Assembly (NCBI GenBank): GCA_021789355.1
Contig: JAJYJR010000219.1
Location: 1 to 9,004 of the forward strand
DNA length: 9,004 nucleotides
Direction of reading: 5' to 3'
Origin: Chloroflexota bacterium
GTDB lineage: Bacteria; Chloroflexota; Limnocylindria; Limnocylindrales; CSP1-4
Shown piece by piece: positions 201-8,864 of the stretch. The position numbers were made by a program, and so were the translations under genes. Position 1 is the stretch's first letter. Every line of letters begins with the position of its first letter. Below the pieces are notes generated by a model. It was not told where the DNA came from, ran no database searches, and was given only the letters and a program-made list of their open reading frames with translations.

Positions 201-290
201 AGCGACTGACCTGCTTTCCAGCGGGACCACATGTCTCGCTTCTGCTCGGCCGTCAGTGTGGGTCTGCTCGCCTGTGCCACCGGCCACCTC

Positions 291-330
291 CCGATCGATA
301 CCGCATCAAGGTCGATGTTGCATCGATCGG
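291..330. promoter_or_regulatory. Palindromic hairpin just before the zinc-ribbon gene
   Basis: CCGATCGAT (291-299) and ATCGATCGG (322-330) form a perfect 9-bp inverted repeat. Inside it, CATC (304-307) can pair with GATG (314-317). The structure ends exactly at the preferred start codon (TTG 331). It could be an operator or a leader hairpin; it has no T-tract, so it is not a typical terminator. The function is inferred from symmetry only. Confidence 0.4.
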
Positions 331-1065
331 TTGAATCCGCCCCGCCTATCGGCCCTGCCCGTCGAGTTCGAGGTCCGCTGGCGCGTCCTCCAGGACCCCG
401 CCGCTCGGCTCGGCTCGCTCGCGGCCCTCCTCATCGGCGCCCGCGACCGCGCCCGGCGCAACACCGCGGCCTACATGGCCGACGCGAAGACGCGCTCGGT
501 GCTACGGCTGCTCGAGGGCGAGAACGAGGAGCGCGCTCGAGCGGGCCTGGCGCCCCTCGTGGCGACCGTCAAGCCCGGACTCCGGACGCTCTCGATCGCG
601 GTGGCGGGGCTCACCCTCGCCGACTTCCCCTCGCGCCTGCGCGACTGGAACGGCACGGCGAACGGAGCGGTGGATCCGCTGCCGTTATCGGCGGGCTCGA
701 GCTACGAGGCGCACTGGCGGTGCCACCGCTGCGGGCACCGCTGGACGGCGCCGGTCGCGCAGCGCACAAAGCGGCTCACGCGCTGCGGGCGCTGCCACAC
801 TGAGCGCGCCGACGGGCTGAACTCGCTCGCCGCGCTCCATCCCGAGTTCCTGCCCGAGTGGGACGCCGAGACCAACGCGCCGTTGCGCCCGGAGCGCATC
901 AAGGCGACCTACGACAAGACGGTGGCCTGGCACTGCCCCGACGATCCGACGCACCCGGGCTACGGGATGTCGCCGTATGCGCGGGCGAAGGTCGAGGTCG
1001 GCTGCCCGATCTGCCGGAAGCGGCGGCGCGCCGTGGCCCGCCGGGAGAGGAAGCGGGCCGCGTAG
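331..1065 (+). CDS. Zinc-ribbon protein, DUF4379-like repeats
   Basis: A predicted 244-residue soluble protein. Residues 1-100 are helical and Arg/Ala-rich with no family I recognise. The C-terminal half holds two zinc-ribbon units. Unit 1 (about 105-155) has WRCHRCGHRW then CGRC (Cys 131, 134, 152, 155). Unit 2 (about 165-228) starts with the hallmark 'SLAALHPEFLPEWD', then a WHCP...H segment and CPIC (Cys 202, 225, 228). The 'LA-x-LHPE-x-x-x-EW' plus C-x2-C layout matches the probable zinc-ribbon domain DUF4379 found in tandem in bacterial and phage proteins, some nuclease-linked; no nuclease domain is visible here. The start is uncertain. The frame is open back to the IS junction at about 199, with GTG at 256 and TTG at 331. 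Codons before 331 (ata, tgt, caa, ggt) look non-coding and neither start has a clear Shine-Dalgarno. The original 5' end may have been removed by the IS. Confidence 0.7.
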   Translation: MNPPRLSALPVEFEVRWRVLQDPAARLGSLAALLIGARDRARRNTAAYMADAKTRSVLRLLEGENEERARAGLAPLVATVKPGLRTLSIAVAGLTLADFPSRLRDWNGTANGAVDPLPLSAGSSYEAHWRCHRCGHRWTAPVAQRTKRLTRCGRCHTERADGLNSLAALHPEFLPEWDAETNAPLRPERIKATYDKTVAWHCPDDPTHPGYGMSPYARAKVEVGCPICRKRRRAVARRERKRAA

Positions 1066-1277: not shown

Positions 1278-1898
1278 TTACGCGGCGACTACCGCTGCCT
1301 CATGGGCAGCCGCGCGCGCCTCCTCAAAGACTGCAACCCGACTCGCACCGCGCGCCTCTACGGTCGCGCGTCCGAACGCCCGAACGGAGGCATGGTCATA
1401 CGAAACGACGTGGCACACGCCACGCGCGGCGACTTCCGAGTGATCTCGGGCGGTCACCTCGACCGACCCGAACGCGTTCACACGTGCCGCGCCACTGGCA
1501 TCGACTCGAAGTGGACGATTCGACGCGGCCTTGACGCTCGCATGGCCACTGGCCCTGACGGTCGTTTCCTCGAAGGCGTCCACCGTCACCTCATCAGTTG
1601 CGACAACGGAGGCACGATCCTGAACGATGACCCGCGCCCGTTCAGATGCGGTCACGGCCACCTCGCCGCGCGCCAGCACGTGCCCCTGACCCGAGACGTC
1701 CACGACGGCCTGCTCCTCGGCGGTCACGAATGCGGAGCCTGTCACACGAACGCGAGCTCGCTCACGGGCCACGACCTCGTGGCCGCTGGCGACCACGAAG
1801 GAACCGTTGCCGCGACACACCACCACGCGCATCCCTTGCGACGGCGACGCGAGGGCGCGGTCCAGTTCCGTCTGGTTGAAGACGTCCGAAGACTCCAT
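1278..1898 (-). CDS. Octapeptide-repeat protein, predicted beta-solenoid
   Basis: A 206-residue protein. After a leader of about 32 residues (MESSDVFNQTELDRALASPS then an MRVVVC strand), almost everything is an 8-residue repeat of pattern x-A-x-[GDE]-x-A-x-V. Examples are VARERARV (43-50), TASERARV (83-90), RAFGRATV (173-180) and EARGASRV (181-188). About 20 units run from residue 35 to the end; a V or similar residue falls at every eighth position (42, 50, 58, 66 and so on). One two-residue insertion at 131-140 separates two blocks. There is no signal peptide or membrane helix. Regular small/hydrophobic alternation with turn residues predicts a parallel beta-helix. Similar 'ATVRAYDS'-type repeat proteins occur as hypothetical proteins in actinobacteria and phages; I know of no assigned function. 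No obvious ribosome site precedes the ATG, and the promoter-like motif ends 6 bases before it, so a leaderless transcript is possible. It heads a two-gene unit with the 58-aa peptide. Confidence 0.75.
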   Translation of the reverse strand: MESSDVFNQTELDRALASPSQGMRVVVCRGNGSFVVASGHEVVARERARVRVTGSAFVTAEEQAVVDVSGQGHVLARGEVAVTASERARVIVQDRASVVATDEVTVDAFEETTVRASGHASVKAASNRPLRVDASGAARVNAFGSVEVTARDHSEVAARGVCHVVSYDHASVRAFGRATVEARGASRVAVFEEARAAAHEAAVVAA

Positions 1899-2161: not shown

Positions 2162-2530
2162 ATGAAGCCCATCGGACGCGCCATGCCGGTCACCTGCCCG
2201 GCGTGCGGCATCGGCGCGGTGGCCGGCAGGTGCACGCTCACGCGGGGCGCGATCGTGACCCTCTACTGCGACGCCTGTGCGCTCCACATCGAGAACGGGA
2301 TCGTCCTCGCCCACGGGGTCGACATCGATCCCGACGACATCCGCGACCTCGCGCGTCGGCGGGCCCCGAACGCGAGCCCTGAGGAGCTGTACATCGCACC
2401 CGAAGCACGGCCCCTGCTTCTGGTCCCCACCGATGCGGGCGACCCGGATGAGCATGCGACGGACTGGCCGCCGATCACCTCGCTCACGATCCGGTTCGCG
2501 CGGCAGCCCAGCAAGACCTCCCCACGATGA
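2162..2530 (+). CDS. Small zinc-ribbon protein, 122 aa
   Basis: A 122-residue protein with an N-terminal zinc-ribbon: CPAC (Cys 12, 15) and CDAC (36, 39) about 20 residues apart, with a further Cys at 24. An acidic stretch DIDPDDIRDLARRRA (54-68) and a low-complexity C-terminus follow. There is no membrane helix. The ATG at 2162 is chosen because GGAG sits 9 bases upstream; an in-frame ATG at residue 8 is the alternative. Its TGA overlaps the ATG of the next gene by four bases (ATGA at 2527-2530), so the two are almost certainly translated together. No family is recognised beyond the metal-binding ribbon. Confidence 0.75.
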   Translation: MKPIGRAMPVTCPACGIGAVAGRCTLTRGAIVTLYCDACALHIENGIVLAHGVDIDPDDIRDLARRRAPNASPEELYIAPEARPLLLVPTDAGDPDEHATDWPPITSLTIRFARQPSKTSPR

Positions 2531-6313: not shown

Positions 6314-6541
6314 TCAAGGGGGAGGGGATCCACCGTCGTCGCGCACAGGCAGGTCGCGCGCATCGCGCAGGTAGCGCGCCCGGAAGGCGACGAAGTCGAC
6401 CTCGCGCACGCGGTACGAGCGCCGGCCGCCGGCATCGAAGGCCACCGCCGCGAGGCGCCCGAGCTCGACCTGGCGCAGAACCCAGCGGCGCGTGTAGCCG
6501 AGTTCGGCGGCGATCTCCGGGATCGTGCGGTAGCGGGTCAT
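6314..6541 (-). CDS. Excisionase/MerR-type helix-turn-helix protein, 75 aa
   Basis: A small DNA-binding protein. Residues 6-28 (TIPEIAAELGYTRRWVLRQVELG) give the helix-turn-helix of the excisionase (HTH_17) group. The beta-wing RLAAVAFDAGGRRSYRVREVDFVAF follows, with the usual 'G-[RK]-x-[YW]-R-[IV]' strand, and then a short charged tail. Such proteins act as phage or plasmid excision factors or as small repressors. No integrase is within the window, so a regulator role is equally possible. It is divergent from the protease operon, with 220 bases between the two starts, a natural place for its operators. The ribosome site is weak (GGGG about 8 bases upstream). Confidence 0.8.
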   Translation of the reverse strand: MTRYRTIPEIAAELGYTRRWVLRQVELGRLAAVAFDAGGRRSYRVREVDFVAFRARYLRDARDLPVRDDGGSPPP

Positions 6542-6761: not shown

Positions 6762-8147
6762 ATGTCCAGGCACGCACCGCGCCTATCGGATCGGCGCACA
6801 CGGCGCTGGTTGCACACCCACCGGGTGGTGGTGCGTGGTCTCACGCTGGTCGATCACGTGGGCTCGCCGCGGGCCACCCGCGAGGTCGCGAGCCTGGCCG
6901 CTATGCTGCGTGCGCCTGAGCAGGTCGCCGCGGCTGGCGGATCGATCGTGCGCGGTGTGTTGTTCGCGGGCCCGCCCGGGGTGGGCAAGACGAACCTCGC
7001 GCGCATCCTCGCGGCGCTCCTCGGCGACGCCGTTCCCTACTACGAGTGCACCGCCGCCGAGCTCACCGAGCGGCGCGTCGCTGCGCTGGCGCGCTTCTTC
7101 GCCGGGCACCCGGCGCCCGCGGTCCTGTACATCGACGAGATCGACGCGGTGGCCCTCGAGCGTGGTTCGCGGGTCCACGACCGGCGCTCGCGGAGCGTGC
7201 TTTATGCCCTGCTCTCGGCGCTCGATGGATTGCGCGACGGGGGCCGGGTCCTCTATCTCGCCAGCACGAACACCGACCCCGCCTTCTTGGATCGCTCGCT
7301 CCTCCGCGCCGGGCGCTTCGGGCGGATGGTGCGCCTCGAGCTGCCCACGCGCGCAGAGCGGCGCGAGCTGCTCGGCTACCTGCTCGCGCGTCGCCAGGTC
7401 GCCGAGCCGCTCGATCTCGAGCGCGCCGCCGAGCTCACCCGGGGGCGCAGCGGCGCCGACCTCGTCGGCGCGCTCGACGACGGACTCGCCCTGGCACTCG
7501 CCGACGGCGTCGCGAGCGGCCTCACGTGGCGGCACCTGGTCGAGGCCATCCGTCGCCACGGGGAGGTCGACGAGGTTCCTGCCCTCGCTCCGGCCCAGCG
7601 CCGCCGCCAGGCCGTCCACGAAAGCGCGCATGCCGTCGTGGCCCTGGAGCTCCTGGGCCCGGGTGCCATCACCGCGATAGCGCTCGGCGATCATCGCGGG
7701 GGTCGCACCGAGCTCGGTCCCGACGACGGCTCGCGCCCCGACCTGCCTGACGAGGAGCTACTTGCCCGCGTCGCCGTCCTTCTCGCGGGCGCCATCGGCG
7801 AGCGCCTGTTCCTGGGCTCGGGGTCGCTCGGGGGTGGCAGCGACATGCAGCAGGCGACGGAGCTGCTGCTGTCCCGCCTATCGTGCGGCACCGATCCGGC
7901 GTGGGGCGAGCTGTGCACCGACGCCTTTGTCCGGGAGACCGGTCCGCGCCTCCTCGATGCGCGCGCCGCCGCGGTGCGCCTCGAACTCGATCATCAGGCT
8001 GCGCGAGCCGCCGCGATCCTGGAACACCGGCGGGACGCCGTGCTGGCCTTCGCCGACACGCTGCTCGCGGACGAGGCACTGAGCGGCGATGCCCTCAGCG
8101 CAGCGCTCGGCGCGCTGCCCCGGGAGAGCGAGGTGGGGGTTGCCTGA
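6762..8147 (+). CDS. FtsH-like AAA+ zinc metalloprotease without membrane helices
   Basis: A 461-residue protein with the FtsH domain order. The AAA+ domain has Walker A GPPGVGKT (70-77), Walker B AVLYIDEID (120-128), sensor-1 Asn (STNTDP, 170) and the second region of homology LLRAGRFGR with both arginine fingers (182, 185). A helical lid follows, then an M41 peptidase domain with the zinc motif HESAH (286-290, usual form HEAGH) and the third ligand Asp 361 in GGGSDMQQAT. The His-to-Asp spacing is close to that of E. coli FtsH. It should be an ATP-driven protease. FtsH proteins normally begin with two membrane helices and a periplasmic domain; here the AAA+ domain starts near residue 25 with none. 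The aromatic 'FVG' pore loop is also missing, replaced by about ten residues (ECTAAELTER). The ATG at 6762 is chosen because AGGAGAG lies 9 bases upstream; the open frame to 6540 is not coding-like. Its stop overlaps the next start (TGATG). Confidence 0.9.
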   Translation: MSRHAPRLSDRRTRRWLHTHRVVVRGLTLVDHVGSPRATREVASLAAMLRAPEQVAAAGGSIVRGVLFAGPPGVGKTNLARILAALLGDAVPYYECTAAELTERRVAALARFFAGHPAPAVLYIDEIDAVALERGSRVHDRRSRSVLYALLSALDGLRDGGRVLYLASTNTDPAFLDRSLLRAGRFGRMVRLELPTRAERRELLGYLLARRQVAEPLDLERAAELTRGRSGADLVGALDDGLALALADGVASGLTWRHLVEAIRRHGEVDEVPALAPAQRRRQAVHESAHAVVALELLGPGAITAIALGDHRGGRTELGPDDGSRPDLPDEELLARVAVLLAGAIGERLFLGSGSLGGGSDMQQATELLLSRLSCGTDPAWGELCTDAFVRETGPRLLDARAAAVRLELDHQAARAAAILEHRRDAVLAFADTLLADEALSGDALSAALGALPRESEVGVA

Positions 8148-8293
8148 TGGGCGTCGTTCGCCTCGCCGTGCGGTTGCTCCTCCTGGTGGTGTTCTGCGCG
8201 GCCCTTGCCGCCGTCGTGTTGGCCGCCCTCATCGCCGCGGCCGCGTGGACGCTCCTGCGGGTGGCCGCGCCGGACCCGGGATCGAGGGGCTAG
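8147..8293 (+). CDS. Single-helix membrane peptide, 48 aa
   Basis: The start codon shares one base with the protease stop (TGATG), so translation is coupled. Residues 3-40 are almost wholly hydrophobic (LAVRLLLLVVFCAALAAVVL onward through alanines to TLLRV), forming one long or two short membrane helices, with a short polar end (APDPGSRG). No domain is recognised. Placed between an FtsH-like protease lacking membrane helices and a J-domain membrane protein, it could anchor the protease. That is inference; it could also be a substrate or a regulatory peptide. Confidence 0.7.
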   Translation: MGVVRLAVRLLLLVVFCAALAAVVLAALIAAAAWTLLRVAAPDPGSRG

Positions 8294-8300
8294 TGGCGCC

Positions 8301-8834
8301 GTGAATCCCTGGCTGGTCCTCGGTGTCGACCCGAGCGCGGACGCCGGAGCCGTGCGCGCCGCCTACCACCGCCTCGCTCGCCAGCACCACCCCGACCACG
8401 GTGGATCGACGGCCCAGATGCGCGAGATCAACGCCGCCTACGGGCTCCTCGATGCCACCCTGCGGGCCGCGTCGAACCGCTCGACAGGGGCCGGAAGCTC
8501 CGCCGATCCGGCAGGCTGCTCCGGCGCCCGTGCCGCGTCGGCTACCGACGCACGACCGGCGGCATCGTGGTCGCGGCGTGCGCGGAGCTGGCTGGCGGGC
8601 TCCCGGCCCGGGCAGTGGCTGACCTCGCTCGTGATCCTCATGGTCGTGCACCAGGTCGCGGTGGCCGCAGCGATCGGGGCGCCCTCGTTCCTTGAAACGC
8701 TCGTGGCACTCCTCGCGCTGTCGCTGCAGGCAGCCGCCACGCCTGCCGGGCAGGCTTTCGCCCCGGGCCGCGACGCCCTGGCGCTCGCGGTCCTTATGCT
8801 GCGCGCCGCCTTCTGGTGCGCCGATCAGTGGTGA
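8301..8834 (+). CDS. J-domain (DnaJ-like) membrane protein, 177 aa
   Basis: A J-domain at residues 1-55: NPWLVLGVDPSADAGAVRAA, then YHRLARQHHPDHGG with the essential HPD (30-32), and the closing helix REINAAYGLLD. The J-domain is what stimulates Hsp70 (DnaK) ATPase. There is no Gly/Phe region, zinc centre or substrate domain of classical DnaJ. Instead a Ser/Ala linker (56-100) leads to about three hydrophobic segments: 107-126, 130-146 and 158-172. It is thus a membrane-tethered J-protein that would recruit DnaK to the membrane. The GTG at 8301 is 7 bases after the previous stop, with GAGGGG upstream. It forms one operon with the protease and the small membrane peptide. A 12-bp hairpin overlaps its stop. 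Confidence 0.85.
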   Translation: MNPWLVLGVDPSADAGAVRAAYHRLARQHHPDHGGSTAQMREINAAYGLLDATLRAASNRSTGAGSSADPAGCSGARAASATDARPAASWSRRARSWLAGSRPGQWLTSLVILMVVHQVAVAAAIGAPSFLETLVALLALSLQAAATPAGQAFAPGRDALALAVLMLRAAFWCADQW

Positions 8835-8850
8835 CGTCGCGCACCAGAAG
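8810..8850. terminator. Hairpin at the end of the protease/J-domain operon
   Basis: CTTCTGGTGCGC (8810-8821) and GCGCACCAGAAG (8839-8850) are a perfect 12-bp inverted repeat with a 17-base loop. The 5' arm is inside the last codons of the J-domain gene. There is no T-run after it. It is probably a terminator or mRNA-stabilising 3' end. Confidence 0.55.
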
Positions 8851-8864
8851 TCGTCAGGCGGCCC

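Follow-up and report, generated by a model that had tools for sequence, protein, structure and literature searches.

Proteases of the AAA-M41 kind (FtsH, the i-AAA enzyme YME1L, and the m-AAA enzyme AFG3L2) share an AAA+ domain followed by an M41 peptidase domain, with Walker motifs, an arginine finger, a HEXXH motif, and a third zinc ligand. The protease described here has the same architecture; however, it carries neither the membrane or periplasmic part of these enzymes nor pore loop 1, the substrate grip of FtsH. Its gene is followed by those for a membrane helix peptide and a J-domain protein, partners with separate precedents. Membrane-anchored J domains bring Hsp70 to the membrane in DjlA and Tim14/Pam18. 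Turnover of sigma32 by FtsH involves the general-purpose DnaJ, whose gene does not adjoin that of the protease, and a dedicated helix peptide plays no part. SpoVM is a small hydrophobic peptide that acts with FtsH, and to our knowledge both SpoVM and MgtR work together with complete, membrane-bound FtsH, neither being co-encoded with a soluble protease plus a J protein. As would be the case for the trio, the Hsp70/J system influences degradation by an M41 protease in vivo: depletion of DnaK/J stabilizes the FtsH substrate sigma32, although this was not reproduced in vitro (available text of PMC3866087). MgtR, like the peptide studied here, is shorter than 50 amino acids and tied to M41 proteolysis, promoting degradation of MgtC (available text of PMC6813294). 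The initial annotation knew of no described system with this arrangement, and searches of open-licence PMC papers for such an arrangement or for soluble M41 proteases listed none whose title or abstract describes a linked M41 protease, helix peptide, and J protein.

A three-gene unit in three divergent loci

The window (the whole 9,004-nucleotide stretch of Chloroflexota DNA that was analyzed) contains the trio and two further genes of interest:

2162..2530, plus strand: small putative zinc-binding protein (sub-threshold Pfam matches and cysteines)
6314..6541, minus strand: small DNA-binding protein of the HTH_17 (excisionase/MerR-like) type (Pfam HTH_17, 28.5 bits; cut-off 27)
6762..8147, plus strand: AAA+/M41 protease, 461 amino acids (ATG at 6762, TGA at 8145-8147)
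8147..8293, plus strand: helix peptide, 48 amino acids (ATG at 8147-8149, TAG at 8291-8293)
8301..8834, plus strand: J-domain protein, 177 amino acids (GTG at 8301, TGA at 8832-8834)

Protease and peptide genes overlap by 1 base, the peptide ATG lying within the TGATG of the protease stop, and a 7-base spacer (8294-8300) separates the peptide from the J gene; translation of the three is probably coupled. Rereading the open reading frames and their Pfam domains thus reproduced the three-gene cassette that had been annotated, in its order, coordinates, and overlapping or 7-base junctions. The protease frame passes a third-position G+C filter. The peptide and J frames fail it; both were nevertheless taken as real because homologues exist.

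Elsewhere in the window, the protein encoded at 256-1065 (plus strand) carries two treble-clef zinc stretches of the DUF4379 type and is partially related to proteins on plasmids from Piscirickettsia, Rhodococcus, and Curtobacterium, among others, and a repetitive protein (1278-1898, minus strand) matches phrog_15773, whose function is unknown (E 2e-13). An imperfect 24-base inverted repeat (79%) at 8798-8862 spans the J stop codon and could be a terminator, though one that lacks a T run.

We searched 177 genomes of one Chloroflexota class (that of G145). The choice followed from a single sampled Chloroflexota genome with a G+C content of 72%; sequence composition as such did not point to this class, which ranked ninth by correlation (0.54, against 0.58 for the best and 0.53 for the two halves of the window). 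Two genomes of this class yielded further trios with the same order and similar junctions, so that the conserved pairing of short M41 proteases with membrane J genes, which the initial annotation had proposed to look for, does occur at other loci:

L131 (G1009:C89), minus strand: HTH_17 protein, protease P0049, 42-amino-acid helix peptide, 199-amino-acid J protein
L194 (G1010:C192), minus strand: 487-amino-acid protease, 52-amino-acid helix peptide, 173-amino-acid J protein

Both stand on short contigs (5.9 kb for L131 and 4.4 kb for L194). At L131 the peptide again starts within the protease TGATG (1-base overlap) and is followed by a 10-nt gap before the J gene; at L194 the overlap is 4 bases (GTGA) if the first in-frame GTG is the peptide start, with a 4-nt gap before the J gene. 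Relative to the window, the L131 protease is 37% identical and its J protein 43% identical over 120 amino acids, and the L194 J protein is 49% identical over its full length. The three genes are one unit that recurs in three divergent loci, a recurrence suggestive of a joint function.

The proteases of these loci do not follow the same pattern of relatedness as their partners. While the L194 J protein and peptide are closer to those of the window than the L131 counterparts are, the L194 protease is 36% identical to another short protease, P0017, over 450 amino acids, versus 33% to the window protease over only 256 amino acids. It groups with P0016/P0017 in the tree (branch support 96/99). A tree in which the trio proteases form a single clade with the close relatives of the window protease was disfavored (p-AU 0.004, for a group chosen after the tree had been seen and with a long L194 branch). 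From these comparisons, the peptide and J protein seem to stay together while the protease partner changes; however, fast divergence of the L194 protease could also produce this pattern, given its long branch and the post hoc group.

The protease and its two small partners

The window protease matches Pfam AAA (79.3 bits; cut-off 21.2) and Peptidase_M41 (46.4 bits; cut-off 29.9), and by alignment it retains Walker A and B, the arginine finger, the zinc-binding HESAH, and an Asp as third zinc ligand. Hydropathy and length indicate that there is no N-terminal membrane helix: just two hydropathy peaks exceed 1.6 (1.8 and 1.7), both within the M41 domain, and close homologues begin at about the same position. 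Pore loop 1 (aromatic-hydrophobic-glycine, FVG) is missing, the region being about 7 residues shorter than in FtsH. The loop is absent from 19 of 19 aligned short M41 relatives (fragments P0013 and P0014 excluded) but present in 16 of 16 canonical FtsH proteins of the same class (9 of 25 canonical loci, having no open reading frame that passed the filter, were dropped). Short relatives without a J gene have lost it as well, so that its loss does not track the presence of J. Of the 19, 18 retain Walker B; L197 has ED in place of DE. The L194 protease has HEAGH and the third ligand, with an M41 match of 23.2 bits, below the Pfam cut-off of 29.9.

The best structural matches of the window protease are FtsH chains (e.g., 3kds and 2ce7), and it has the superfamily features of an AAA domain, HEXXH, and third Asp ligand, from which hexameric, ATP-dependent proteolysis can be predicted. 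Nevertheless, it lies outside the canonical FtsH branch of the tree. We filed it outside FtsH because three defining features of that family were tested and found lacking: the score against the FtsH equivalog model TIGR01241 (169.9 bits; cut-off 600), the N-terminal transmembrane helices with periplasmic domain, and pore loop 1. Judged by sequence, it is a member of a separate set of short M41 enzymes, of the AAA-M41 kind but not FtsH. The earlier description of a soluble FtsH-like protease therefore stands as regards the absence of membrane helices; however, the enzyme is not simply FtsH minus its helices, since pore loop 1 is gone as well.

The 48-amino-acid peptide has no Pfam match and contains a single strongly hydrophobic stretch (hydropathy peak 3.17). 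Homologues on other contigs form three clusters at 92-98% identity. The window and L194 peptides align with a score of 84.5, equalled by 0 of 5,000 shuffles, whereas the scores of the L131 peptide were reached by 11 of 5,000 shuffles against the window and 31 of 5,000 against L194; in all three comparisons, none of 85 other natural membrane segments scored as high. That the peptide is a spurious reading frame was rejected on the strength of the homologues, the L194 counterpart, and these tests. The membrane helix peptide of the initial annotation is thus confirmed, with homologues in the same place at L131 and L194, and so is its J-domain protein, with a putative membrane tether. The latter matches Pfam DnaJ (36.9 bits; cut-off 27.8) and has, near its N terminus, an HPD motif that is invariant in four aligned members (the window protein, P0041, P0054, and P0051; P0041 is a further close homologue, at 67% identity), so that it belongs among J-domain proteins. 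It is predicted from domain and motif to stimulate an Hsp70. In the same alignment, a variable linker leads to a conserved hydrophobic C-terminal tail with one hydropathy peak (2.23), which AlphaFold models as three helices (pLDDT about 55-73). In contrast to DjlA and Tim14/Pam18, the J domain is thus N-terminal and the tail has no Pfam match.

Genomic neighborhood and possible mechanisms

Homologues of the window HTH_17 protein were found by tblastn near the protease in L194, L196, and L197; the HTH_17 protein of L131 was identified by Pfam and has no tblastn match to that of the window. The HTH gene adjoins the protease gene in the window, L131, L194, and L197 and lies 1.7 kb off in L196; it is divergent from the protease in the window, L194, and L197 and on the same strand in L131. 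Also beside the L131 trio is a homologue of the small putative zinc-binding protein of the window (L131 3879-3493; 33% over 131 amino acids, E 2e-11, tblastn). Beyond the HTH gene of L194 lies a DnaB-like helicase gene, and the L132 contig bears a phage-type integrase; the window itself contains no integrase or replication gene. Because of the nearby HTH genes, the helicase, and the integrase, the gene content suggests integrated mobile elements in Chloroflexota.

We tentatively favor a reading in which the trio, probably borne by a mobile element and with translation of its genes probably coupled, is a module for protein quality control or regulatory proteolysis. On our best inference, its products would act jointly at the membrane, where DnaK would supply them with substrates. 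The J protein, lodged in the membrane and with its J domain facing the cytosol, would recruit host DnaK and pass on clients that are unfolded or loosely folded. The helix peptide would dock the soluble protease at the membrane beside the J protein or aid its assembly, and DnaK would make up in part for the missing pore loop in preparing substrates. Two observations bear on the proposed anchoring. When its membrane span is removed, YME1L is an inactive monomer, and an added oligomerizer restores its function (available text of PMC5095350). Membrane-free pieces of FtsH have been crystallized, going by the entry titles ("Truncated FtsH" and "Whole cytosolic region"), so that structure does not depend on a membrane anchor in every case. 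Rather than taking over from host FtsH, the module would probably serve the element, by removing a host or element protein or by protecting the host under stress: the L131 genome, G1009, contains an FtsH-type match in an open frame of 665 amino acids besides its trio. More doubtful is the specific proposal of a split membrane protease, in which a soluble M41 enzyme without membrane domain and pore loop would have the peptide as its anchor and the J protein with host Hsp70 as its unfolding device, peptide and J protein forming an exchangeable adaptor paired with two M41 groups. If the inferred mechanism is true, a mobile element would link host Hsp70 to membrane proteolysis, with anchor, adaptor, and protease as separate, exchangeable genes. 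By themselves, the short M41 enzymes offer a natural test of how far pore loop 1 is required by AAA+ proteases, and of whether Hsp70 can replace it.

The neighboring HTH gene, a candidate regulator of the trio, raises a different possibility, which we consider unlikely: that the M41 protease removes the HTH_17 protein and thereby switches the element, with the J protein and peptide sensing membrane or folding stress. ImmA-type peptidases act in this manner on ImmR-type repressors, and the position of the HTH gene by the protease, its divergent orientation in three loci, and the mobile-element genes in relatives all agree with such a role. However, mobile elements often encode short HTH proteins of the excisionase-like kind anyway, the L131 gene is on the same strand as the protease, and the HTH protein as substrate is a candidate only.

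Loss of the pore loop with retention of the zinc residues, as in all 19 aligned short relatives, would likewise suit a non-threading, perhaps substrate-clipping peptidase, whose peptide neighbor would serve the J protein rather than the protease; that peptides and J proteins are nearer to their counterparts across loci than proteases are points the same way. We think this quite unlikely, since the window protease keeps Walker A, Walker B, and the arginine finger, implying ATP-driven work.

Occurrence of the three genes together and apart

In a profile search of the 177 genomes, seven short M41 loci from 5 genomes outscored the longer FtsH-type proteins; L194 was found via its J gene only, and the resulting count is at least eight short M41 places in six genomes. 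Two of the eight (L131 and L194) have the peptide and J genes, five do not, and L196 was left undecided, as its contig ends 326 nt past the protease stop. In the five (L132, L133, L195, L197, and L198), tblastn on stretches of 5.6-19 kb found no J gene, and no membrane-peptide open reading frame lies within 500 nt downstream of the protease; because of these five, neither peptide nor J protein is needed for the short M41 type generally. J matches at E 1e-40 or better and near full length numbered two in the 177 genomes, both in trios, and the next best stood at 1e-16. Thus, the short M41 type often stands alone, whereas the full J family, within these genomes, does not. The initial annotation had named homologous proteases regularly lacking the other two genes as an argument against joint action, and this applies in part: five of eight do lack them, while both full-length J matches have them. 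For ten protease relatives at 66-86% (including P0005-P0012), the contigs differ in length from all those that carry the known J and peptide homologues, so that no J gene could be tied to them.

Solitary proteases are also what would be expected if the trio were three independent accessory genes that travel together without joint function. This is very unlikely, given that the same order and overlap-type junctions recur in three loci, one with a protease apparently from another group, and that both full-length J matches of the 177 genomes lie in trios. Least likely of all is an anti-phage or inter-element defense module, with an AAA+/protease effector and membrane partners: IetAS pairs an AAA ATPase (IetA) with a protease (the subtilase IetS), the AAA part of the window protease resembles PADLOC IetA models (best 64 bits, E 4e-18), and the context is probably mobile, but the likeness is of AAA fold only, the protease domain here is M41 and fused to the ATPase, and neither the J protein nor three other window proteins scanned matched PADLOC.

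Searches outside the class returned distant or partial matches, or none. No close relative of the window protease was found in IMG/VR; plasmids (688 records) and phages (34 records) gave matches that were each below 60% identity, and in no record did a single place cover 80%, and P0017 matched 591 plasmid records, each below 60% identity. At E 1e-60 the protease had no match in 350 Chloroflexota genomes, 346 Actinomycetota genomes, and 296 genomes of one Actinomycetota class (overlapping sets), and P0017 had none at E 1e-45 in 296 Actinomycetota genomes, largely the same as those of the protease search. A scan of genome contigs with the protease gave AAA proteins at 24-36% identity among the matches listed. 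For the J protein, the alignment had no match at E 1e-18 in the 41 genomes of a second Chloroflexota class, and the window sequence alone found no relative in IMG/VR, whereas the alignment as query found 30 IMG/VR loci with J-domain matches. Among plasmids, 18 records matched the J protein partially, and no M41 gene is annotated near two plasmid J matches (H25 and H32); the L194 J protein had no match among phages. Scanning 58 J-match loci (28 from the class and 30 from IMG/VR) for AAA or M41 domains gave five matches, namely a membrane FtsH-type protein of G201 and four weak AAA matches about 4-5 kb off.

Several loci show other arrangements of M41, J-domain, and membrane genes. At L132, which has no J gene, an upstream open reading frame (2-271), predicted to encode a membrane helix, overlaps the start of the protease gene (268) and is perhaps another membrane partner in trans. 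At L199 (G201:C119, 490-2991, minus strand), an 833-amino-acid membrane M41 protein keeps the pore loop (YVGVG); next on that strand comes a J-domain open reading frame (below 486), cut by the contig end, which makes this another M41-J neighborhood. Finally, L200-L203, of the same Chloroflexota class, repeat an order of membrane ftsH, DnaB-like ATPase gene, and J-domain gene (labels assigned partly by eye), in which the J gene belongs to another family and encodes no membrane helix.
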